Source: Arthrobacter sp. NicSoilB8 (GTDB lineage Bacteria > Actinomycetota > Actinomycetes > Actinomycetales > Micrococcaceae). From it: DNA of 64,000 nucleotides. Below, piece after piece: positions 6,206 to 63,358 of this stretch. Below the pieces are notes generated by a model. That model had not been told where the DNA came from. It did not search any database and worked only from the letters and a program-made list of their open reading frames with translations. The translations under genes were made by a program, and so were the position numbers. The stretch spans positions 3,162,001-3,226,000 of the forward strand of contig NZ_AP024655.1 in assembly GCF_019977355.1 (NCBI RefSeq), written 5' to 3'. Within the stretch, counting starts at the first letter, position 1. Each line of letters opens with the position of its first letter.

Positions 6206-7744
6206 TCAGCCGCGGAAGGCGCGCAGGCGCGCCAGGGACGAGTCCTTGCCCAGGATGACCATGGATTCGAACAAAGGCGGGGAGATCCGGCGTCCCGAAA
6301 CGGCCGTGCGGACGGGGCCGAAGGCCAGGCGCGGCTTGACGCCGAGGCCCTCCACGAGGGCTTCCTTCAGGGCAGCCTGGATGTTCTCGGCCGTCCAGTC
6401 GGCGACGGGCTCCAGCGCGGACAGCGCGGCGTCGAGGACCTCGGTGAGGTTCTCCGGGAGGCCCTTGCGGGCGTCGTCGGCGACGTCGATCGCGTCGTCG
6501 GCCTTGAACAGGAACGCGAGCATTTCCGGCGCCTCGCCGAGCAGCGAGATGCGCTCCTGGATCAGCGGCGCGGCCTCGGCCAGGATCTCTTCCTCGCGGG
6601 CGGTGAGGTTCTCCCCCACGAATCCGGCGGCCTGCAGGTACGGCACCAGGCGGCCGCGGAAGTCCTCGGCGTCCAGCATGCGGATGTGTGTGCCGTTGAT
6701 GGCTTCGGCCTTCTTGATGTCGAATCGGGCCGGGTTGGCCAGGACATCGTTGACGTCGAAGTGTTCGATCAGCTGCTCCACGGTGAAAATATCCTCGTCG
6801 GCGGAGAGGCTCCAGCCGAGCAGGGACAGGTAGTTCAGCAGGCCTTCGGGGATGAAGCCGCGGTCCCGGAGCAGGAACAGGTTGGACTGGGGGTCGCGCT
6901 TGGAGAGCTTCTTGTTGCCCTCGCCCATGACGTACGGCAGGTGGCCGAACACCGGCATGTAGCTGGCGACGCCGATGTCCATGAGGGCGCGGATCAGCAC
7001 CACCTGGCGGGGCGTGGAGGAGAGCAGGTCCTCGCCGCGGAGCACGTGCGTGATCCCCATGAGGGCGTCGTCCACCGGGTTGACCAGGGTGTACAGCGGG
7101 GAGCCGTCGGCACGGACGATGACGTAGTCCGGGATGCTGCCGGCCTTGAACGTGATCTCGCCGCGCACCATGTCGGTGAACGTGACGTCTTCATCGGGCA
7201 TGCGGACGCGCAGCACGGGCTGGCGGCCCTCGGCCTTGAACGCAGCGAGCTGATCCTCGGAGAGCTCGCGGTCAAAGTTGTCGTAGCCCAGCTTGGGGTC
7301 GCGGCCGGCGGCACGGTGGCGGGCCTCGACTTCCTCGGGCGAGGAGTAGCACTCGTAGGCGTAGCCGGCGTCGATCAGCTTGGCGACGACGTCCTTGTAG
7401 AGGTCCAGCCGCTGCGACTGGCGGTAGGGCTCGTGCGGGCCGCCGACCTCAACGCCCTCTTCCCAGGTGATGCCGAGCCATTTGAGAGCCTCCAGCAGCT
7501 GCTGGTAGCTCTCCTCCGAGTCGCGCGCCGCGTCGGTGTCCTCGATCCGGAACACAAAGGTGCCCTTGGTGTGCCGGGCGTGGGCCCAGTTGAAGAGGGC
7601 GGTGCGGATCAGTCCGACGTGCGGGGTGCCCGTGGGGGACGGGCAGAACCGGACACGGACGGGGGTGTCGGTGGTGACTTCACCGGCAGGGGCGGCAAGC
7701 GGGGCTGAGCTGGAGACGGCGTCGGACGCGGAGGCAGTAGTCAT
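6206..7744 (-). CDS. gltX: glutamyl-tRNA synthetase
   Basis: Class I aminoacyl-tRNA synthetase charging tRNA-Glu, and in most actinobacteria also tRNA-Gln before amidation. The 512-residue length is normal. The HIGH-type motif is [19 protein letters not shown] (HVGL variant), then FRIEDTD, the tRNA-Glu acceptor-binding block and KKLSKRD as the KMSKS-type loop. The N-terminal 25 residues are a low-complexity Ala/Ser extension. It lies near tRNA-Glu and tRNA-Gln genes and downstream of an FAHD gene; gltX beside an FAHD gene is a conserved actinobacterial arrangement. Confidence 0.97.
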
Positions 7745-7873
7745 AGTGGTACCAACATTACCAATCCCTGCCCGCGCCCCCTGCCCGGAATACCGCTGCG
7801 AAAACGGACAGCCGCACCGTGGATCCCACGGGCGGCTGTCTGAAATCGGCGCAGCTTCCTGCGCGCGGAGCAG

Positions 7874-8650
7874 CTAGCGGCGCACTACCGGGTTGGAGAG
7901 CCGTCCGATGCCCTCGATCTCGACCTCATAGCGGTCGCCTGCCTGCACCGCGCCGACGCCGGCGGGGGTACCGGTCATGATGACGTCGCCGGGCAGCAGG
8001 GTGAAGGCCTGCGAGACGAGGGAGACGAGTTCGCGCACGCCGCGGATCATCTGGCTCGTGCTGCCGTCCTGGCGCAGTTCGCCGTTGAGCCGGCCCTGGA
8101 TCCGGAGGTCTTCGGTGTCGAGCTCGGTCTCGATCCACGGCCCGAGCGGGGCCGAGGTGTCGAAGCCCTTGGCCCGGGCCCACTGCAGGTCCGTCTTCTG
8201 GACGTCGCGGGCGGTGAGGTCGTTGCCGCAGGTGTAGCCGAAGATCACGTCGTCCACGCGGGCTTCGGGCACGTCTTTGCAGATCCGGCCAATGACGACA
8301 CACAGCTCGGCCTCGAAGGAGACGTCCTCGGAGAACTCCGGCAGGACAATGGGATCATTCGGCCCGATCACGGAGGTATTGGGCTTGAGGAACAGCAAGG
8401 GCTGCTGCGGGACCTCGTTGCCCAGCTCCCGGGCATGCTCCGCGAAGTTCCGGCCGACGCCGATGACCTTGCTGCGGGGAATGATCGGCGCCAGCAGGCG
8501 GACGTCCTCCAGCTTGTGCTTCATGGGGGTTCGTTCCACGCCATGGAAGAAGGGGTCGCCCTTGATGACAGTGACTTCCTCACTGCCGGGCTCACCTTCC
8601 ACGATGCCGTAGAGGGGATCAGAATCAACTACAAACCGGGCGATACGCAT
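7874..8650 (-). CDS. fumarylacetoacetate hydrolase (FAHD) family protein
   Basis: A 258-residue FAH-superfamily enzyme, acting on small 2-oxo or beta-diketo acids (hydrolase, decarboxylase or isomerase). The core starts at IGVGRNFAEHARELG, with metal-ligand glutamates in VSFEAELCVVIGR and the aspartate/lysine region FGYTCGNDLTARDVQ. The C-terminal signature is GDVIMTGTPAGVG. Its exact substrate cannot be named from sequence. It is 129 bases upstream of gltX on the same strand, and this adjacency is conserved in related actinobacteria as I recall it, although no functional link to translation is known. Confidence 0.93.
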   Translation of the reverse strand: MRIARFVVDSDPLYGIVEGEPGSEEVTVIKGDPFFHGVERTPMKHKLEDVRLLAPIIPRSKVIGVGRNFAEHARELGNEVPQQPLLFLKPNTSVIGPNDPIVLPEFSEDVSFEAELCVVIGRICKDVPEARVDDVIFGYTCGNDLTARDVQKTDLQWARAKGFDTSAPLGPWIETELDTEDLRIQGRLNGELRQDGSTSQMIRGVRELVSLVSQAFTLLPGDVIMTGTPAGVGAVQAGDRYEVEIEGIGRLSNPVVRR

Positions 8651-52593: not shown

Positions 52594-52689
52594 TCCCCGG
52601 AACGCGCCGCGGCTGGCCTACACTGCTGGTTTGGGGGCAGTGGCTGTCCTCGTGTGCACTACGTCCCCGACCCGCCAGGAGACCATGAG

Positions 52690-55600
52690 ATGTTCCGGCT
52701 CGCAAAGCTGTCCCTCGCCAACCGGGCCCTGATCGCGCTGATCACGGTGTTCGCGTCGGTCTTTGGCGTGATCACGATGTCCTCGCTGAAGCAGGAGCTC
52801 ATCCCGTCCATCGAGTTCCCGCAGATCACCGTGATCACCTCGATGCCCGGCGCGTCGCCGGAAGTCGTGGACAAGCAGATCAGCGCCCCGCTGGAAACGG
52901 CGCTGAACAGCGTCGAGGGGCTGGAGTCGACGTCGTCGACCTCCCGGAACGGCGTCTCGCAGATCACGCTGGCGCTCACCTACGGCTCCAACCTGGACCG
53001 GGCCCGGAACCAGATCGACCGTGCCATCTCCAACGCCAGGCAGGCCCTGCCAAAGGACGTCCAGCCGCAGGCCATCGCCGGGAGCATCAGCGACTTCCCG
53101 ATCGTGTTCCTGGCCGTGTCCTCGGACAAGCCGCTCAGCGAACTCAACGCCGATCTCGCCCGGCTCAGTGTCCCCCGGCTGCAGAAGCTCGACGGCGTCA
53201 GGGGCGCCGATGTGACCGGCGGCGCCACCCAGCACATCCAGATCCTGCCGCGGCCGGGGGACCTGGCGGAGTCTGGCGCGAGCATCCAGTCCATCAGCGA
53301 TGCCCTGAAGAACAACGGATCACTGGTTCCGGCCGGCACGGTGGAGGAGCAGGGCAAAACCCTCTCGCTCCAGATCGGCAGCCCGGTCGATTCCCTCGAC
53401 GCCATCAAGGCCCTCCCCCTGGGCGCGGCCCGCAATGCCGCCACGATCGGCAGTGTGGCGGACGTCAGCCTGGTCGAGGACGCCCGTACGTCCATCACGC
53501 GCACGAACGGCAAGGAAACCCTGGCCCTGTCCGTGACCAAGAAGCCCGAAGGCGACACTGTCGCGATTTCGCATGCGGTGAAGGACGCCATCCCGCAGCT
53601 CGAGGCTGAGCTGGGCTCCAACGCCAAGTTCACCCCGGTCTTCGACCAGGCACCGTTCATCGAGAAGTCGATCAAGGACCTCACCACCGAGGGCCTGCTG
53701 GGCCTGGGCTTCGCCGTCGTGGTGATCCTGGTGTTCCTGATGTCCGTGCGCGCCACCCTGGTGACGGCCGTGTCCATCCCGTTGTCGCTGCTGATCACGT
53801 TCATCGGGCTTTCGGCCACCGGCTACTCCCTGAACATCCTGACCCTCGGCGCCCTCACCATCGCGATCGGCCGCGTGGTGGACGACTCGATCGTGGTCAT
53901 CGAGAACATCAAGCGCCACCTCAGCTATGGCGAGGACAAGATCACCGCCATTGTGACCGCCATCCGCGAAGTCGCCGGTGCCATCACGGCCTCGACACTG
54001 ACGACAGTGGCCGTCTTCCTGCCGATCGCGTTCGTCGGCGACCTGGCCGGCGAACTGTTCCGGCCGTTCGCCCTCACCGTGACCATCGCCCTGCTCTCCT
54101 CGCTGCTGGTCTCGCTGACCATCGTGCCCGTGCTGGCGTACTGGTTCCTGCGCACGCCGGCCGTCGCCGGCTCCCCTGCTGGTTCTGCCGCCGGCATTGC
54201 CGCTAAGGCACATGAGGCCGAGCAGCATACGCTGTTGCAGCGCGGCTACCTGCCCGTCCTTGCCGGCACCCAGCGGCATCCCGTCCTCACCCTGATCGCC
54301 GCGGCCCTGGTGCTCGGCGGCACCGTGGCGATGTCCCCGCTGCTCGCCACCGATCTGCTGGGCCGCTCCGGCGAGAACAGCATGACCGTCAAGCAGGCCC
54401 TGCCGGCCGGAACCAGCCTTGACGAGGCCAGCGCGTCAGCCATCCGGGTCGAGGGCGTCCTGCGCGGCATCGACGGAATCAAGGACGTGCAGTCCACCAC
54501 AGGCAACGCCCAGACCGGGTTCTCGGCCCTGCTCTCCAGCGGCGCGTCGAATTCGACCTTCACGGTGGTCACGGACGAAAAAGCCAACCAGGGGAAGCTG
54601 CAGGACACCGTCCGCAACGAGCTCGCCAAGCTCGGCGACGCCGGCAAGATCACTGTCGGTTCCCAGCAGGGCGGCTTCGGCACCTCATCGACGGTGGACA
54701 TTACCCTCAAAGCGGCCAGTACCGCCGATCTCCGGGCCGCCAGTGACTCGATGGTCAAAGCCATGGACGGCGTACCCGGCAGCAGCGAGGTGGCAACGAA
54801 CCTGGCCGCCAGCCAGCCTGTGGTCCAAGTCAAGGTGGACCGGGCCAAGGCCGTCGCGGCCGGCCTGAACGAGGAGCGCGTGGCCGGGGTCCTGGCGGCA
54901 ACGATCAGTCCGATTCCGGCCGGAACGGTGCGGATCGAGACCAACGACTTCCCCGTCCGGATCGGTGAGGGCACCCGCTTCACAAGCATCGACGCCGTTC
55001 GGGACATCCCGCTCCCGACGCCGGCCGGCGCCGTGCCGCTGGGCAGCATCGCCGCCGTCGAGCAGGTGGACGTCCCCGTCTCCATTACCGCCAGCAACGG
55101 CCAGCGCACCGCTCGGGTCTCCGTGACGCCGTCGGGGGCCAACCTCGGCGCGGTGAGCACCGAAGTGCAGAACCGCCTCAAGGCAGTCCAGCTGCCACCG
55201 GGAGTCACCGCCACGATCGGCGGCGCCACGACCCAGCAGGCCGATTCGTTCCGCCAGCTGGGGCTCGCGCTGCTGGCCGCCGTCGCGATCGTCTACGTGA
55301 TCATGGTGGCTGCGTTCAAGTCCCTGGTGCAGCCGCTGATCCTGCTGGTCTCCATCCCGTTCGCGGCGACGGGTGCCATCGCCCTGCTGGTGGTGACAGG
55401 CGTGCCGCTGGGCCTGCCGTCGCTGATCGGCATGCTGATGCTTGTGGGCATTGTGGTGACCAATGCGATTGTGTTGATCGACCTCATCAACCAGTACCGC
55501 CAGCCGCGCAACGGCGAACCCGGGATGGCGGTGGCGGACGCCATCACGCACGGCGCCCGCCAGCGTCTGCGCCCCATCCTCATGACGGCCCTCGCCACGG

Positions 55601-55884
55601 TCTTCGCCCTGACGCCCATGGCATTGGGACTGACCGGGGGCGGGGGCTTCATCTCCCAGCCCCTGGCGATCGTGGTGATCGGCGGGCTGATCTCCTCCAC
55701 CGCCCTCACGCTCGTCCTGGTTCCGGTCCTGTACCGGCTCGTGGAAGGACGCCGGGAGCGCAAGGCCCTACAGAAGTCCCTGCCCCGCGGACGCCATTCC
55801 GGGCCGGCCGCGGCTGGGGACTTCCCCGAGGAATTTCCCGATGACTTCTCCGAAGACGCTTCCGTGCCGACGGGGTCGCACTAG
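52690..55884 (+). CDS. RND-family efflux permease
   Basis: Resistance-nodulation-division transporter of about 1064 residues from ATG 52690 (MFRLAKLSLANRALIALITV). Twelve predicted membrane helices in the usual 1+5+1+5 arrangement: TM1 in ALIALITVFASVFGV, a block from LLGLGFAVVVILVFLMSVRA through VVDDSIVVIENIKRHLSYGE (the RND proton-relay Asp pair 'DDS'), and a second block from LLAAVAIVYVIMVAAFK to the end. Two large extracytoplasmic loops with the pore/porter repeats (SMPGASPEVVDKQISAP). No adaptor or outer-membrane gene, as expected for a monoderm. The C-terminal tail after RLVEGRRERKAL is acidic. Convergent with pls; stops share CTAG. Confidence 0.92.
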   Translation: MFRLAKLSLANRALIALITVFASVFGVITMSSLKQELIPSIEFPQITVITSMPGASPEVVDKQISAPLETALNSVEGLESTSSTSRNGVSQITLALTYGSNLDRARNQIDRAISNARQALPKDVQPQAIAGSISDFPIVFLAVSSDKPLSELNADLARLSVPRLQKLDGVRGADVTGGATQHIQILPRPGDLAESGASIQSISDALKNNGSLVPAGTVEEQGKTLSLQIGSPVDSLDAIKALPLGAARNAATIGSVADVSLVEDARTSITRTNGKETLALSVTKKPEGDTVAISHAVKDAIPQLEAELGSNAKFTPVFDQAPFIEKSIKDLTTEGLLGLGFAVVVILVFLMSVRATLVTAVSIPLSLLITFIGLSATGYSLNILTLGALTIAIGRVVDDSIVVIENIKRHLSYGEDKITAIVTAIREVAGAITASTLTTVAVFLPIAFVGDLAGELFRPFALTVTIALLSSLLVSLTIVPVLAYWFLRTPAVAGSPAGSAAGIAAKAHEAEQHTLLQRGYLPVLAGTQRHPVLTLIAAALVLGGTVAMSPLLATDLLGRSGENSMTVKQALPAGTSLDEASASAIRVEGVLRGIDGIKDVQSTTGNAQTGFSALLSSGASNSTFTVVTDEKANQGKLQDTVRNELAKLGDAGKITVGSQQGGFGTSSTVDITLKAASTADLRAASDSMVKAMDGVPGSSEVATNLAASQPVVQVKVDRAKAVAAGLNEERVAGVLAATISPIPAGTVRIETNDFPVRIGEGTRFTSIDAVRDIPLPTPAGAVPLGSIAAVEQVDVPVSITASNGQRTARVSVTPSGANLGAVSTEVQNRLKAVQLPPGVTATIGGATTQQADSFRQLGLALLAAVAIVYVIMVAAFKSLVQPLILLVSIPFAATGAIALLVVTGVPLGLPSLIGMLMLVGIVVTNAIVLIDLINQYRQPRNGEPGMAVADAITHGARQRLRPILMTALATVFALTPMALGLTGGGGFISQPLAIVVIGGLISSTALTLVLVPVLYRLVEGRRERKALQKSLPRGRHSGPAAAGDFPEEFPDDFSEDASVPTGSH

Positions 55885-58800
55885 GAACGGGACCCCGGGA
55901 GCTCGGCGTCGGTCTTGGCATTGCCATTGGCCTTCGCCTTGGCCTCGACGCTCGACTTGGCCTGGACCTGGGTTGCCTTCGCCGCCTTGTGGGTTCCGTG
56001 GGCCGCATGGGTTGCGTGGGTTCCGTAGGGTCCCTTCGAGAGCCTGAGGAGCCCACCGGGCGCAGCGGCTACCTCCCTGTGACGGGGGCCGCCGTGGCGG
56101 GGGCTGGCGGAAAACACGGCCGCGAGCGCTTTGGGTGCCGCCGGGCTCATCACCTCGCGCGCCGGGTTGCCGGAATATATTGCATTTTCCGGGACGTCCT
56201 CGCCTTTCATCAGAAAGGCGTCGGCCCCGAGAGTCGAACCATCGCGCATCGTCACCCCGTAGTTGACCCAGGAATCCACGCCCAGGGAGCAGCGGTTGCC
56301 GATCGCGATGTAGTCAGATTTGAAGGCGCCGTCTTCCATGGAGTGGCCCTGAACGTGCACTCCCTCGTTGAACGTGCAGTCATCCCCGATCGTCACGAGG
56401 GTCTTTTCCGGCATGTTCAGGCCGGCGTCGTAGAGCCGCTTGCCCACCTTGACCCCCAGCAGCCTCCAGGTCAGGGGCTTGAACGGGGTTCCGTTGAACG
56501 GCGCCCCGGCCAGCAGCTTCCAGAGCCGTTCGTGCTGCCAGAAGTACCGGTCGTAGATCGAGCAGTACTGCGGCTTCAGGCGGCGGAAGCCCATAACCGA
56601 ACGCTCCACCAATGCCATAAACAGAATGCGGAACACCACCAGGCCGAGCATTGCCCCGGCGACGGCCAGCGCACCGAGGAAACTGTGCGCGGATACGGCA
56701 ACGGCGCCGGCGAGTGTGGCAACAAACAACAGGACCCAGCGCACGGCCAGGAACAGCACCATGCTCACGATGTTGTGCCGGTTCTTGGACGGGAGAAGCC
56801 TGTTCATGGCGTCCGCGATCTTGAGCTCGTCGAACTCGGCGTCACGCTGAACGGACCGCGGAATCTCGAATGCGGGTGATCCCAGCAGCCCCACATCCCT
56901 CCGGACCGGGCCGTCAATCGGAATCATCACTTTCGAGGCCAGGAGACAGTTCTCCCCGACGCGGGCTCCAATCGGAAACGTGATGTTGTTTCCCAGGAAG
57001 TTGTGGCCGGCGATCCGGACCCGTGAGAGCCGGAAGGACGAGCCGGTGTAGTCGGCGTTCATCATGTTCAGACCGTCCGAAACCATGGTCCCTGTCCCGA
57101 CGGAGTTGAGGAACGGCGACTCGTGGCCCAGCGTGGGGCCGAAGTTCGACCCTGTTTGCTGCACCTTGCCCAGGTCCCAGCCCAGCGCCCGCAGGTAGTG
57201 CACGATGTAGGAGCTGTCGCCGAAGATGTCCTTGTAGAGCCTGGCGTTGGAGGTGCGGGCAATCAGCCGATGGATCGAATAATGCCAGCCGTAAAGCGGA
57301 TAGACGACATCGGGCTTGAGGAAATGGTTCAGCAACCGCGGAACACAGAGGACAACCACCAGACCGACTATCAGGCCGCCAATGAACACGACCAGTGTCA
57401 TCACCGCCACATCAACAAAGAACGTGTAGGCGCCCAGCTGCAGGTGCCCGGTGTCCAGGTAGGGAGGCAGGAGCGCGGCCAGGCCGAGCACGCCCGCCGG
57501 AACGACCAGGACCAGCCGGTTGAACAACTGGAGGAGGCTGAAGATGACCCTCCGCCGGGTGGTGCAGGGCACGGCCGGGACTCGCCGGTAGTTGGCGCTG
57601 GCACGCGCCGCGGGGGAACCGTGCCACACCTGTCCCTCGGGCACGACCTGCGAGGTCTGCAGCGATGACGCATGTCCAAGCTGGGTGTCGTTGCCCATCG
57701 TCGTTCCGATGTCGAGGGTGGTCCGCTCCGAGACAAGGACATTGCTTCCCAGCGTCACCGGGCCCATCTCGATGAGTCCCGAATGTGCCCGGTAGCAAAC
57801 GAACGATGAATCTTTATTGATCACGGAGTTGTCGCCGACGGTGAGCAGGTCCGGGCAGGCGGGCAGCTTCCGGGAGAAGATCGCCACCCCCTTGCCAATC
57901 TTGGCGCCCAAGAGCCGCAAGTACAGCACATAGAGCGGAGAGCCGACGAAGAGAGCGAGCGGGTTTGCCCGCATCAGCGTCTTGACCACCCAAAATCGCA
58001 GATAAGCCAGACTCCAAATTCTGATGGTGCCCGGCTTCCACCGCCCGACGAGGACCCATTTGAGGATGATCGGGGTCACGGACAGGACCACGAACATGGC
58101 GGCGCCGAAACCGACGGCGCGAAGCCACATGTCAAGGAGGGTGGTTCCCCCCAACGTCCATTCGTAGCCAAAGACCAGCAGCCATGCGGCGTACATGGTG
58201 TAACCCAGGAAAAACAGCAATTGGACGACACCGCAAAGAGCGTACTGGAACGAGCTCACGGGAGGCACCGGTGCCGGGAGTACGGCGCCGGGCTCCGGCA
58301 CGGCGGCGCTGTCAACGGATTCACTGTGCCGTGCCTCGAGGCATACGGCAAGCTGCCGCACCGTCGGGTTCTCGTAGATGTCCTGCATTGCGGCCGGTGG
58401 CAGGGCGGTTTCTTTTCTGATGCGGGCGCAGAAGCGGGCCATCAGCAAGGAATCCGCGCCCAGGTCGTTGAAGAAATGGGCATCGGTTGACACCTTGTCA
58501 AGGCTCAACACGGCGCCGAGCTGCGCCGCCAGGGCCTCTTCGGCGGCGGTCGTTGGGGCGGTAAACGACCCGGCGGCCGCCTGGCTGATTCTGTGCTCTG
58601 GACGGGGTAACCGTTTCCTGTCCACTTTGTCGCTGGCCATCATGGGAATGGCGTCCAGCTGTTCAAAATAGGCAGGAACCATGTACCCGGGAAGCCTGGT
58701 GCGCAGCATCCGGTGGAGGTCATGGGCATCAACGCCCGCGACATCCTGGCGAATGGTGTAGTAGGCGGCCAGTTCCACGGTTCCGGGTTCCGGTTCAAAC

Positions 58801-60242
58801 GTCTGGACGACCGCCTGGGCAATTCCGGGGAGCTGGAGGAGGACGGATTCGATCTCGCTCAGCTCGATGCGGTAGCCGCGAATCTTGACCTGAGTATCGA
58901 TCCGGCCGAAGTATTCGAGTTCCCCGTCGTCGTTGACCCGGCCCAGATCCCCGGTGCGATAGATCCGGCCGGAGGGATTGTTCCCGATCCCCAGGAAGTC
59001 CGGCACGAACGCCCGGTCCGTCAGGTCCTGGCGGTTCACGTATCCCCGCGCCAGTCCCACGCCGGCGAGGCCTATCTCACCGGATTCACCCCGGGGCAGC
59101 GCCCGGCTCTGCTCGGGGTCAAGGATGACCGCCGAGTACGTGGGCAGGGGCACGCCGAGGGACACGGGCACGTCCGGGTCGAGGACCGACCACGTGGCAG
59201 TTACCGTCGCTTCGGTCGGGCCGTAGACATTCAGGAAGCGGCGCCCGGGGCGGTGCCAGCGCAGGACGAGATCCTTGGGGCAGGCCTCCCCGGAAACCAG
59301 CAGGAACCGCAAATCGGGCAGATCATCGTCGAGCGTCGCCAGCAGCGTTGGAACACAGCAAAGAGCCGTGATCCGTTTCTCCTGCAGGTACTCCGCGAGC
59401 TCGGCGCCCAGCATGCTGGATCGTCCGGGCTTAGGCACCAGGGTGGCCCCGACCATCCAGGCGACCCAGATTTCTTCCACCGAAAAATCAAAGGCGATCG
59501 TCATGCCTTGGTACACGCGGTCCGTGGGCTCGATTCCGTAAATGTCGGAGGCCACCCGGATGAAATTGCAGATACTGGCCTGTTCCACCGCCACGCCCTT
59601 TGGCCGGCCCGTCGAACCGGAGGTGTAGATGATGTATGCCAGTTCATCCTTCGTCCCGCCATGGTCCGCACCGCTCAGGCGGGCCGGGTCCTTCGCCTCG
59701 ATCTGCGCCTGCACATCATCAACACACACCGTAACGGCGGCCACTTCAGGCAGCAGGTCCTTCAGATGGGACAGTGACAGGATCATGGCCACATTGGCGT
59801 CTTCAACGATGTACTGGAGGCGGTCCGGAGGGAATCCCGGATCCAGCGGAACATAGGCCGCGTGGATCTTCAAGACGGCAAGCATCGCCACGTACGACCG
59901 CCACGGCTGGTCAAACAGCAGCGCGACGCGGTCGCCCGGCCGGGCACCGCACACCAGGAGATGACGCGCCAGCTGATTCGCCCGTTCGTCCAGCTCCCTG
60001 TACGTCAGGACAACGTCCCCGGCATCCACGGCAATCTGGTCGTCCAGCCCCTGGTCCCGCAGGTCATCACAGCGGTCCTCGAAAAGCTGGTCCAGCCGCT
60101 CGCCCCGATGCCAGCGCGCGGCCTGATCCGGCGCGGCCGATGTCAGGACAGTTCCCCCCTCCAAACCGCCAACCGTGGACATCTTTCCGCGCAACTCAGG
60201 GGGTGTGGTGAGGCTGTTGCCGATCCTCGCGGTCTTGCCCAT
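55881..60242 (-). CDS. membrane-embedded Pls-type poly-amino-acid synthetase
   Basis: A 1453-residue single-module peptide synthetase of the epsilon-poly-lysine synthetase (Pls) type. Residues about 45-545 are the adenylation domain: A3 YTSGSTGRPKGVAVE (206-220), A5 NVYGPTEATV (338-347), A8 QVKIRGYRIELSEIE (451-465), A10 SDKVDRKRLP. Residues 565-635 are a carrier domain with FFNDLGADSLL (Ser598 for phosphopantetheine). From 665 there are about six membrane helices in pairs separating three hexapeptide-repeat domains (about 780-870, 1035-1115 and 1265-1365). No condensation or thioesterase domain. By hand alignment the binding-pocket residues are D, F, E, C, L, S, V, V, T, K; Glu at the third place suits a basic substrate. 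ATG 60242 has AAGGAGC. Operon with an aspartokinase and a diaminobutyrate aminotransferase; substrate probably 2,4-diaminobutyrate. Confidence 0.9.
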   Translation of the reverse strand: MGKTARIGNSLTTPPELRGKMSTVGGLEGGTVLTSAAPDQAARWHRGERLDQLFEDRCDDLRDQGLDDQIAVDAGDVVLTYRELDERANQLARHLLVCGARPGDRVALLFDQPWRSYVAMLAVLKIHAAYVPLDPGFPPDRLQYIVEDANVAMILSLSHLKDLLPEVAAVTVCVDDVQAQIEAKDPARLSGADHGGTKDELAYIIYTSGSTGRPKGVAVEQASICNFIRVASDIYGIEPTDRVYQGMTIAFDFSVEEIWVAWMVGATLVPKPGRSSMLGAELAEYLQEKRITALCCVPTLLATLDDDLPDLRFLLVSGEACPKDLVLRWHRPGRRFLNVYGPTEATVTATWSVLDPDVPVSLGVPLPTYSAVILDPEQSRALPRGESGEIGLAGVGLARGYVNRQDLTDRAFVPDFLGIGNNPSGRIYRTGDLGRVNDDGELEYFGRIDTQVKIRGYRIELSEIESVLLQLPGIAQAVVQTFEPEPGTVELAAYYTIRQDVAGVDAHDLHRMLRTRLPGYMVPAYFEQLDAIPMMASDKVDRKRLPRPEHRISQAAAGSFTAPTTAAEEALAAQLGAVLSLDKVSTDAHFFNDLGADSLLMARFCARIRKETALPPAAMQDIYENPTVRQLAVCLEARHSESVDSAAVPEPGAVLPAPVPPVSSFQYALCGVVQLLFFLGYTMYAAWLLVFGYEWTLGGTTLLDMWLRAVGFGAAMFVVLSVTPIILKWVLVGRWKPGTIRIWSLAYLRFWVVKTLMRANPLALFVGSPLYVLYLRLLGAKIGKGVAIFSRKLPACPDLLTVGDNSVINKDSSFVCYRAHSGLIEMGPVTLGSNVLVSERTTLDIGTTMGNDTQLGHASSLQTSQVVPEGQVWHGSPAARASANYRRVPAVPCTTRRRVIFSLLQLFNRLVLVVPAGVLGLAALLPPYLDTGHLQLGAYTFFVDVAVMTLVVFIGGLIVGLVVVLCVPRLLNHFLKPDVVYPLYGWHYSIHRLIARTSNARLYKDIFGDSSYIVHYLRALGWDLGKVQQTGSNFGPTLGHESPFLNSVGTGTMVSDGLNMMNADYTGSSFRLSRVRIAGHNFLGNNITFPIGARVGENCLLASKVMIPIDGPVRRDVGLLGSPAFEIPRSVQRDAEFDELKIADAMNRLLPSKNRHNIVSMVLFLAVRWVLLFVATLAGAVAVSAHSFLGALAVAGAMLGLVVFRILFMALVERSVMGFRRLKPQYCSIYDRYFWQHERLWKLLAGAPFNGTPFKPLTWRLLGVKVGKRLYDAGLNMPEKTLVTIGDDCTFNEGVHVQGHSMEDGAFKSDYIAIGNRCSLGVDSWVNYGVTMRDGSTLGADAFLMKGEDVPENAIYSGNPAREVMSPAAPKALAAVFSASPRHGGPRHREVAAAPGGLLRLSKGPYGTHATHAAHGTHKAAKATQVQAKSSVEAKAKANGNAKTDAELPGSRS

Positions 60243-60257
60243 CCTTTAGCTCCTTCG

Positions 60258-61733
60258 CTAGAAGTGACGTGCCACTGTTCTGCTGTCCTGCGGGACATGC
60301 GGCCTGCCGTCCCGCAGGACATGCGCGGTTTCGTGGCCAGAAATCGCAGCCCACGTGCCGACCGGGGCGCCTACGGCGACCGTGAGGTTGCCGACGCGGC
60401 CCGTCCTCGCTTCCTCTTCCGCCGGAGCCACGCCGAATGCCCGGCGGACAGCACGTTCGGCATCCGCGAGCCGGTCGGTGTGGGTGACGGCCCCCATGCA
60501 CGTCTCGGAAATGTCGACCAAATCCAGTTCAACGTCGGCGTCCGAAAGAGCCTTCAGGAAGGTGCAGAAGATTTCCGGGGAGGACCGCATGCCCAGGCCT
60601 GTGATGGATACCCGGCCCACGTGGCCTTGATGCTGCAAGCCCTGGAAACCTATGGTCCCTTTTGCCGCGTTGAGCACGGCAAGTGCGGGAGCTGCCTGGC
60701 CTTCGGGCAGAATCAGGGCTACGTCGGAGCGACTCGAGCCCGGGCCGGCCGCATTTTGGGCGATTGTCTGGACGTTGGCCCCCGAACGGGACAGCACATG
60801 AAAGATGCGCGCGATGCTGTCCGGCTGGTCCGGAATGCCAAGTACGACGATTTTCGAAGAAGAGTTGACGCCGGCCACTCCGGTCACCAGCGCTTGCTCC
60901 CGTGCGGGCTGGCGGCGTGAACTGCGGTCAAGGCCAGGCAGGATCAACGTCCCCGGCTCCGGCACGAATGAGGATCTCACGTGGATCGGAATTCCGAACC
61001 GGCGGGCATATTCAACACACCGCAGATGCAGTACCTTGCTCCCGGAGGCCGCGAACTCCAGCATTTCCTCACTTGAGAGGACATCGATCTTTCGCGCTGC
61101 CGGCACCACGCGGGGGTCCGCCGTGTAGACGCCGTCGACGTCGGTGTATATTTCACAGACGCTGGCGCCAAGTGCCGCGGCAAGCGCCACCGCGGTGAGA
61201 TCTGAACCGCCGCGTCCGAGGGTAGTCACCTTCCCCCGTTTCTTGGTCCTTCCCTGAAATCCGGCAACGATCGGGATTTCGCCGTGAGCCAGGCAGGTGC
61301 GCACCCGGTCCGGCCTGACATCGGTAATGTGTGCTTTGCCGTGAATGCTGTCGGTGATGAGGCCGGCCGCACTGCCCGTAAAGGTGCGGGGCACCTGGCC
61401 AAGATCTGCCAGTGCGATCGCCAGCAGTGCGGAGGACACAAGTTCGCCGATGCTCAGGAGGGCATCGAGGTCCGACGGGAGCGGCCGGGTGGAAACCTCG
61501 GCGGCGAGGTCGCAGAGTTCGTCGGTGGTGTCCCCCATGGCGGACACCACCGCCACTACCCGATATCCGTTCGCCCGCGTCTTGGCGATGCGCTCGGCCG
61601 CACGGATGATGCCCGCGGCGTCCGCCAGCGACGAGCCACCGAACTTTTGCACAATGACACTTCCCGGGGGAATCACCTGGCCTGTTTCCTCAAGATGACG
61701 GTCGTTGGCCGCTGTTGCTTTGCGGGTACCCAT
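60258..61733 (-). CDS. aspartokinase dedicated to the poly-amino-acid operon
   Basis: Aspartate kinase producing aspartyl phosphate, 491 residues from ATG 61733 (GGGGAGAGAA upstream; a further ATG at 61754 lacks a site). KFGGSSLADAAGIIRAAERI is the N-terminal phosphate-binding block, TTLGRGGSDLTAVALAAALG the ATP/aspartate site, and ACT-type domains start at SKIVVLGIPDQPDSIARIFH and VSITGLGMRSSPEIFCTFLK. The last 60 residues extend beyond the ACT pair and lack similarity I know. It differs in context from a housekeeping lysC, which would sit with asd. It is the middle gene of the operon, 15 bases ahead of pls. A dedicated kinase would bypass feedback control by lysine and threonine; whether this one is insensitive cannot be read from sequence. 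Confidence 0.9.
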   Translation of the reverse strand: MGTRKATAANDRHLEETGQVIPPGSVIVQKFGGSSLADAAGIIRAAERIAKTRANGYRVVAVVSAMGDTTDELCDLAAEVSTRPLPSDLDALLSIGELVSSALLAIALADLGQVPRTFTGSAAGLITDSIHGKAHITDVRPDRVRTCLAHGEIPIVAGFQGRTKKRGKVTTLGRGGSDLTAVALAAALGASVCEIYTDVDGVYTADPRVVPAARKIDVLSSEEMLEFAASGSKVLHLRCVEYARRFGIPIHVRSSFVPEPGTLILPGLDRSSRRQPAREQALVTGVAGVNSSSKIVVLGIPDQPDSIARIFHVLSRSGANVQTIAQNAAGPGSSRSDVALILPEGQAAPALAVLNAAKGTIGFQGLQHQGHVGRVSITGLGMRSSPEIFCTFLKALSDADVELDLVDISETCMGAVTHTDRLADAERAVRRAFGVAPAEEEARTGRVGNLTVAVGAPVGTWAAISGHETAHVLRDGRPHVPQDSRTVARHF

Positions 61734-61817
61734 TTCTCTCCCCGAAATTTGCATTATTCTTGCGAGCGGAGGTTTCCGCGAGGGGCCTGTCGGTAGCAGG
61801 CCTCTGCGTGCGGATCC

Positions 61818-63089
61818 TCAAACAGTGGACACCAAGGGGACCGGTGCTCCGGTCACAAACTCTGCGGCTTCGGCGAGAATATCGAGTCCCCTCTGCAGAT
61901 CTTCAGGACTGATAGTCAGCGCAGGCATCGTCTTGAGAACCTCACCCTGCGGGCCGGACGTTTCCACGAGCAGACCGCGGGCGAATGATTCCGCCGCGAT
62001 CTTCTCCGCCGTCTCGGGACTGGGGTAGTAGACACCCGCCAGCAGACCCCTGCCACGGACAGTAGCGCCTTCGACGCCGGCCGCGATCCGGGCCAGCCCT
62101 TCGTGCAGCTGCGAAACAGTCCCCGCGACTTTCAGTTCGAACCTGCCGTCCTGCCAGTAGTGTTCCAAGGCTGCGGTTCCCGTGACGAATGCCGGATTGT
62201 GCCCGCGGAACGTTCCGTTGTGCTCTCCAGGTTTCCAAATGTCCAGCGCCGGTTTGAACAGCGTCAGGGACAACGGCAACCCGAAACCTGAGATGGACTT
62301 CGAAAGGCAGACGATGTCTGGCTTGATTCCCGCATCCTCAAAGCTGAAAAACGTCCCGGTGCGTCCACATCCGGCCTGTACGTCGTCAACGATGAGCAGG
62401 ATGTCGTGCTGGCGGCACAGGTCCGACAGTTCACGTAGCCAGGATGCCCGGGCGGCCCGGAGCCCGCCCTCGCCCTGGACAGTCTCCACGATCACCGCGG
62501 CGGGCTTGTCGACCCCCGAGCCGCTGTCTTCCAGGGCACGTCGGAACCAGAGAAAGTCAGGCGTCTGGCCGTCGAGGAACCCGTCATAGGGCATGCTCGA
62601 TGCGTTCGTCAGCGGAACCCCGGCCCCGTGCCGTTTCATTGAATTGCCCGTGACCGACAAAGAGCCCAGGGTCATTCCATGGAAGGCATTGGTGAAGCTG
62701 ATGATGTGCTGCCGGCCGGTGACCTTACGGGCCAGCTTCAGGGCCGCTTCCACCGAGTTTGTTCCGGTCGGCCCAGGGAACATGACCTTGTAGTCCAATT
62801 TCCGTGGTTTGAGGATCAACTCCTGGAATGTCTCGAGGAAGCGCCGCTTGGCAACCGTCTTCATGTCCAGGGAATGGACGATAGCACCGGAGAGGAGGTA
62901 GTCGACGAGCGGCCGCAGCAATACCGGGTTGTTGTGCCCGTAGTTCAAGGCACCGGCGCCGGAGAAGAAGTCCAAGTATTCTCTGCCGTCTTCGCTGCAG
63001 AGGGTGCTGCCGGCGGCACGCTCAAACACCGTGTCCCAGCCCCGGCAATAGGAACGAACCTCGGATTCCAAACTTTCAAAGATATCCAT
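61818..63089 (-). CDS. diaminobutyrate--2-oxoglutarate aminotransferase (EctB-like)
   Basis: Class III PLP aminotransferase converting aspartate semialdehyde plus glutamate into L-2,4-diaminobutyrate, 423 residues from ATG 63089 (GGGGGA nine bases upstream; the frame extends to 63188 without family similarity). EctB-type N-terminus [37 protein letters not shown], the substrate loop [20 protein letters not shown], the PLP Asp in [20 protein letters not shown], and the Schiff-base lysine in [18 protein letters not shown]. No ectA or ectC is nearby, so ectoine is unlikely; it is the first gene of the operon with an aspartokinase and pls. Chain order suggests it supplies the monomer. Confidence 0.93.
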
Positions 63090-63225: not shown

Positions 63226-63358
63226 TTTTTTTCACCTATAGAGGTTTTCTATGCGTGAACTGGACAGAACAGCTATGCCTGCCCCACCTGACGGCTCTTA
63301 TCGTAGTCTCAGGAAATTCACAGCACCTCAGTAGCCGGTACCTGTTTTTTTCACTTAG
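63226..63358. promoter_or_regulatory. operon promoter region with a repeated TTTTTTCACYTA element
   Basis: The 386-base gap 63090-63475 holds no gene. Two copies of a T-run plus TCACCTA/TCACTTA lie at 63226-63238 and 63344-63357, about 118 bases apart, in the same orientation (on the minus strand TAGGTGAAAAAA and TAAGTGAAAAAA). This is the most AT-rich part near the operon and likely includes its promoter and operator. Regulator unknown. Confidence 0.35.

Follow-up and report, generated by a model that had tools for sequence, protein, structure and literature searches.

A predicted operon for gamma-poly(L-2,4-diaminobutyrate) biosynthesis in Arthrobacter sp. NicSoilB8

What do an aminotransferase, an aspartokinase and a Pls-type synthetase make when their genes stand side by side in a soil Arthrobacter? 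The question is raised by a locus of Arthrobacter sp. NicSoilB8 within a 64,000-nucleotide stretch of contig NZ_AP024655.1 (positions 3,162,001 to 3,226,000, referred to as the window), which an original prediction had read as an operon for poly(2,4-diaminobutyrate). Three genes lie on the minus strand: DAT (61818..63089, 423 amino acids, start codon ATG), a predicted L-2,4-diaminobutyrate:2-oxoglutarate aminotransferase of the EctB type; AK (60258..61754, alternative start 61733; 498 or 491 amino acids), a predicted pathway aspartokinase; and SYN (55881..60242, 1453 amino acids), which belongs to the Pls/PosA-type cationic homopolymer synthetases. The gaps between them measure 84 bases (with the AK start at 61733) and 15 bases; the three open reading frames stand where they had been placed, and a simple scan gave no minus-strand terminator in either gap (10 sites, 7.0 being expected by shuffling).

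We consider it quite probable that gamma-linked poly(L-2,4-diaminobutyrate) is what this operon produces and secretes. AK, with its feedback control weakened, would phosphorylate aspartate, the semialdehyde dehydrogenase of general metabolism would yield aspartate semialdehyde, and DAT would convert this compound with glutamate into L-2,4-diaminobutyrate (DAB). The adenylation domain of SYN would then activate DAB and load it onto the carrier arm. Embedded in the membrane, the three-beta-helix domain would repeatedly couple side-chain amine to carboxyl; the chain is presumably delivered outside by the membrane domain of SYN, and an M28 lipoprotein encoded upstream of DAT would probably trim or degrade it there, as PldII does with epsilon-poly-lysine. 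Such a pathway would add a non-filamentous soil-bacterial genus to the few sources of poly-DAB, with the monomer supply contained within a three-gene unit.

The synthetase and its substrate pocket

SYN scores 694.6 bits against the TIGR02353 'Pls/PosA family' model (cut-off 423.1). Its domains are AMP-binding, AMP-binding_C and PP-binding, that is, one adenylation (A) domain (58608..60041, minus strand, residues ~68-545; PF00501/PF13193, extents from NCBIfam) and one carrier (T) domain (58347..58532, minus strand, residues 571-632; PF00550, attachment motif LGADS at 594), and the family-model scans list no condensation (C) or thioesterase (TE) domain. The AlphaFold2 model (pLDDT 89.1, pTM 0.89) of the C-terminal polymerisation and membrane domain (56139..58280, minus strand, residues 655-1368) shows long helices, grouped in three pairs, along with three left-handed beta-helices; it thus predicts the arrangement that typifies Pls and PosA, in which six paired transmembrane helices are combined with three beta-helix segments. 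The Foldseek matches listed for this part are hexapeptide-type proteins, mostly acetyltransferases; they span single beta-helix domains, with TM-scores by query of 0.10-0.18 in the 12 best. Family and structure models together bear out the A-T-(hexapeptide domain)x3 architecture proposed at the outset. Among the matches listed, the nearest protein is 92% identical to SYN and the next named ones, from Arthrobacter, 88%. Elsewhere in the family, four synthetases (P0074, P0075, P0076 and P0078) carry a fused phosphopantetheinyl transferase domain (precomputed Pfam, PF01648).

Read by alignment at the GrsA landmark positions, the pocket code of SYN is DFECLSVVTK. Papers are cited here and below by PubMed Central number. 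At the position of PosA Met218, synthetases for lysine have Ala and those for ornithine Met, the poly-diaminopropionate (PDAP) synthetase having Phe, and the PosA substitution M218A raises kcat/KM for lysine nearly tenfold (PMC10522769). SYN has Phe at this position, which suggests a short diamino acid, either DAB or 2,3-diaminopropionate (DAP). A control is provided by the second synthetase of the genome (L099:8657-12637), the pocket of which, DAESIGTVVK, is identical to that of the solved Pls 7WEW; 320 of its 474 aligned residues are identical to 7WEW, compared with 189 of 446 for SYN. The lysine pocket is thus carried by the other synthetase and not by SYN, so a lysine polymer was rejected as the product of SYN, in agreement with the non-lysine substrate first predicted.

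The residue at pocket position 301 follows the gene neighbourhood. Among 108 related synthetases (L147, L158-L161 and L066 being dropped), a DAT gene is near in 56 of the 70 with Ser301 and in none of the 38 with Gly301; the count keeps three same-strain pairs (L017/L134, L033/L136 and L037/L131), without which 56/70 becomes 53/67. Searches of whole genomes gave a DAT over cut-off in 9 of 11 that have a DFECLSVVTK synthetase without an adjoining DAT, one of the nine (G164) counting through its own window-type operon, and in 5 of 14 with Gly301 codes. Ser or Gly at position 301 therefore offers a testable rule for separating DAB synthetases from look-alikes. As a separate observation, 20 alphaproteobacterial synthetases (L040, L041, L044-L050, L053-L056, L058, L059, L061, L063, L069, L070 and L090) have the code DFEALGTVTK or one close to it and no adjoining DAT of the EctB or Dat kind; a GNAT-like and/or phosphopantetheinyl transferase-like gene follows in 19 of these loci, the families having been checked for L058.

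Monomer supply and conserved linkage

DAT lies above the cut-off of the TIGR02407 EctB equivalog model (642.4 bits, cut-off 552.2), as expected of the EctB-like enzyme originally proposed, and its best solved relative is 6rl5 (484.7 bits). AK combines PF00696 with ACT domains (ACT_9) and is indeed a second aspartokinase, since a housekeeping copy, 50% identical to it, is encoded at G000:C1:575917. Relative to the Corynebacterium glutamicum enzyme (3AAW), AK carries A279I, S301A, T311A, N372D, N374E and I375L, whereas the housekeeping copy keeps A279, S301, N374 and I375 and differs at 311 (S) and 372 (G); these positions include ACT-domain residues that bind Lys/Thr in corynebacterial aspartokinase. 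Other operon-borne aspartokinases also diverge at allosteric positions, each differently. T311I is a feedback-resistant allele (PMC4225761), and a comparable aspartokinase, Ask_Ect, occurs in ectoine clusters (PMC5924519). From these substitutions we infer that AK is freed from feedback control.

The three genes keep company well beyond this strain. A scan of named genomes found 573 relatives, of which the best 80 were kept; 33 of these 80 loci have a DAT no more than 7 kb from SYN, 18 of them with a DAT nearer the EctB type and 15 with one nearer the Dat type. Ten DATs were scanned: those of L036, L013, L016 and L038 pass the EctB cut-off, those of L150, L022, L025, L026 and L021 pass TIGR00709 and not the EctB cut-off, and that of L012, the gene call of which starts late, passes neither and is nearest the Dat type. 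On the synthetase tree, a minimum of 4 changes between EctB-type and Dat-type DAT is needed to account for 48 rows; this tree is a quick LG+G4 reconstruction of 89 rows with long-branch warnings, which omits L065, L066, L076, L081, L147 and L158-L161 (short, mis-framed, broken or without A domain) as well as 16 close relatives. The gene order also varies, from dat-ask-syn in the window to ask-dat-syn in L150-L157 of the same genus and syn-dat-ask in Actinokineospora, and fused proteins exist, SYN-AK in P0096 and, by precomputed Pfam annotation, DAT-SYN in P0202, P0229 and P0295.

Within the genus, a window-type SYN is present in 19 of 198 genomes (own included, 65-100% identity; the G053 copy is in pieces), and 16 of these have both DAT and AK no more than 7 kb away from it. 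In the three exceptions, SYN is accompanied by AK and then a contig end (L142), by an AK remnant (L145) or by neither gene (L146). Because both genes adjoin SYN in 16 of the 19 genomes, the grouping is not due to chance. The context of dat and ask genes described for gamma-poly-DAB synthetases is therefore found here, and the pocket, the linkage with two DAT families and the fusions all support the poly-DAB reading, as do the degenerate allosteric residues of AK and the lack of an ectoine synthase and of an SbnA over cut-off (see below).

Several observations weigh against this reading. Of the 33 named loci with DAT, only 14 also have an AK nearby, and 14 of the 70 Ser301 synthetases have no aminotransferase nearby. 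Two genomes of the same genus, G151 and G076, encode SYN proteins of 68-73% identity with the same code and have no DAT over cut-off; in G151 the AK remnant beside SYN points to decay, and in G076 (L146) the 68% identical SYN with its DAB-type code stands in a genome without DAT over cut-off. Phe at the Met218 position is reported for the poly-DAP synthetase too, and the pocket comparison took in Pls, PosA and the PDAP synthetase and no characterised poly-DAB synthetase, while no match named for the source species of pldA or pddA appears among the 120 listed per protein search, many of them nameless. Finally, the counts were made without correction for relatedness, on loci picked by likeness to the SYN clade.

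Alternative products

The best-surviving alternative, though an improbable one, is that the monomer is first racemised and that the polymer is gamma-poly-D-DAB, as in Streptoalloteichus hindustanus. There, the monomer of the D-polymer is supplied by the same kinds of enzyme, the transaminase PddC and PddD, an aspartate kinase specific to the pathway, and PddB, a DapF-like racemase, is coupled to pddA (PMC8225329); moreover, Pls homologues make both D- and L-DAB polymers (PMC10522769). However, the operon holds no open reading frame for a DapF-like racemase such as PddB, and no second DapF was found in the genome: its two DapF matches, 80 bases apart, fall within one 320-amino-acid frame and were thus read as a single gene. 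The search covered the DapF type, with PLP racemases outside it. In the absence of a PddB-like racemase beside the synthetase, L-DAB is predicted.

Only slightly less credible is a product that is mixed, branched, short or cell-bound rather than a plain soluble homopolymer. A branched, multi-diaminopropionyl poly-DAP exists (PMC9606270), and the genome also holds the second, lysine-type synthetase; against this, SYN has a single A and a single T domain, and the operon includes no extra ligase gene. A poly-DAP product is more doubtful still. It would fit the Phe shared with the PDAP synthetase, and the PDAP and PDAB kinds of synthetase are said to be hard to tell apart in sequence alignments (PMC10522769). 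Yet no SbnA-family gene passes the cut-off in the genome (best match 253.3 bits, cut-off 349.95), for which reason a supply of DAP from SbnA was rejected, while the operon holds DAT and AK, and the SbnA-linked cassettes of the genus are associated with a different synthetase, devoid of the A domain.

It is very unlikely that DAT and AK work for a different DAB product, such as ectoine or a siderophore, and stand beside SYN by accident: an aspartokinase gene beside ect genes including ectB is an ectoine arrangement too (PMC5924519), but accidental neighbours were rejected in view of a linkage that is seen again with both DAT families and in fused proteins, and no ectC was found in the whole genome (siderophore genes lay outside the search). 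As the same model finds ectC in two other genomes of the order (E ~1e-57), ectoine was rejected as the product, and the absence of ectC first noted for the visible region extends to the genome, ectA having received no separate search. The lack of EctC, of an SbnA over cut-off and of a second DapF together points to L-diaminobutyrate as the monomer.

The upstream peptidase and known systems

Upstream of DAT, the minus strand carries a gene for a predicted M28 metallo-aminopeptidase (PF04389; 63476..64000, on to ~64474 beyond the window, L098:2477-3475). M28 enzymes are metallopeptidases, and the N-terminus of this protein, LVLSGC, is lipobox-like, the mark of a lipoprotein signal. Its nearest solved relatives are keratinase KP1 (8ac9), at 244.5 bits, and the aminopeptidase 1cp7, at 192.3 bits. 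A match at E <= 1e-100 occurs in 25 of the 28 same-genus genomes with a window-type or A-less synthetase and in 2 of the 170 others (Fisher 3e-26, without correction for relatedness), this cut scoring G117 as lacking despite fragments at contig ends. By type, the match is present in 17 of 19 genomes with a window-type SYN, adjoining SYN in 14, and in 10 of 11 with an A-less synthetase. None of the nine genomes that carry a synthetase of the other clade has it (eight with a Dat-type and one with an EctB-type DAT), and the association is thus not general to DAB. M28 genes also lie beside synthetases in Actinomadura (L014 and L067) and Micrococcus/Citricoccus (L032 and L074) loci. A second M28 copy (G000:C1:177034-177975, L162), 98% identical over 314 residues, stands in an unrelated neighbourhood, and several relatives also have two copies; gene conversion between the copies is possible.

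In S. albulus, pls is coupled with PldII, an aminopeptidase that acts outside the cell (PMC9223678). We therefore propose by analogy that the M28 peptidase is a polymer hydrolase or self-protection enzyme. Its association with the operon may represent a new, so far unnoticed partner: titles and abstract starts from a literature search gave no link between M28 peptidases and poly-lysine degradation. If the link holds, a candidate degrading or self-protection enzyme has been named.

A different cassette occurs in L158 (G061) and L169 (G132), and also in L159-L161, L170-L172, L174 and L175. It comprises SbnA, an A-less Pls-type protein, a separate A-T protein, SbnB and a LuxE-like ligase (below cut-off); among the 11 genomes with an A-less synthetase, SbnA is present in 10 regions, that of G168 being outside the set looked at. 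In L158, SbnA scores 394 bits (cut-off 349.95) and SbnB 422.5 (cut-off 326.9), the A-less protein has three carrier domains and the A-T protein has the code DIWQSTADDK. This cassette lies between a remnant of M28/DAT and remnants of SYN together with the RND gene, and thus occupies the position of the DAB operon. Tentatively, and with somewhat less than even confidence, we suggest that secreted M28 lipoproteins are a peptidase family dedicated to polymers of short-chain diamino acids, poly-DAB as well as poly-DAP, where they stand in for the M1-type PldII of the poly-lysine system, and that the adjoining chromosomal site is a place of exchange between cationic-polymer pathways, the DAB operon of G061 having been overwritten by the SbnA/SbnB cassette.

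Between the M28 gene and DAT, a candidate promoter/operator block (63295..63345, minus strand) consists of two CAGGTRCY-like repeats followed by TACGATAAG; in 13 aligned upstream regions it is alike in nine, those of the nearest relatives, and replaced by another motif in four. A sigma-70 promoter scan gave 0 sites (1.0 expected) and an Rfam scan 4 tRNAs only. At the other end, a convergent RND permease gene (window 52654-55884), the 3' end of which shares 4 bases with that of SYN, directly adjoins SYN in 14 of 19 window-type genomes. The locus of the second synthetase (L099:8657-12637, to which 7200-8507 also belongs) is adjoined by M1 peptidase and phosphopantetheinyl transferase genes; given these neighbours and its lysine pocket, the genome probably also harbors an epsilon-poly-lysine system.

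Among the open-licence PubMed Central papers that our searches listed, none was seen to report a poly-DAB operon for Arthrobacter, in keeping with the original impression that this layout had not been described for such bacteria; two papers on Antarctic isolates mention clusters for non-alpha poly(amino acids) (NAPAA) and do not name DAB. The precedent invoked from Streptomyces is right: the same gene set is already in print (PMC8117764 and PMC8225329), and the pathway has precedents in Streptomyces and in one relative. In PMC8117764, dat and ask are named for DAB synthetases in a gene-context figure legend (Fig. 1) and Pls homologues are reported in Arthrobacter among others, while queries with DAB and DAP synthetases gave no match in cheese and skin genomes. 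In the same paper, Streptomyces coelicolor M145 with the S. albulus pls promoter served as a working expression system for the C. variabile gene, and accessions are given for the synthetases of S. celluloflavus (WP_110952768) and S. hindustanus (WP_083959783), for the PDAP synthetase (EXU85975.1) and for Pls (BAG68864.1). The closest parallel is pldA of S. celluloflavus, the gamma-poly-L-diaminobutanoate synthetase, which shares the Pls-type architecture and whose species also has an epsilon-poly-lysine synthetase, as the Arthrobacter strain probably does. The host genus differs, the M28 neighbor belongs to the Arthrobacter locus, and DAT is of the EctB type here, whereas it is of the Dat type in the two sampled Streptomyces loci with DAT (L022 and L023). 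The synthetase, DAB transaminase and aspartate kinase of the S. hindustanus PddA-PddD system all have counterparts here, unlike its racemase PddB, of which none was seen in the Arthrobacter genome. PosA, the delta-poly-L-ornithine synthetase, belongs to the same family by name (TIGR02353) and is predicted to share the C-terminal fold of SYN, but its pocket, DMEHNGTVSK, is unlike that of SYN. The epsilon-poly-L-lysine system of Pls and PldII (PMC9223678) likewise combines the same synthetase architecture with an adjoining gene for an external peptidase; it differs in its pocket (DAESIGTVVK vs DFECLSVVTK) and, to judge from the lysine-type locus of this genome, in its peptidase, which is of the M1 type there and of the M28 type beside the DAB operon.

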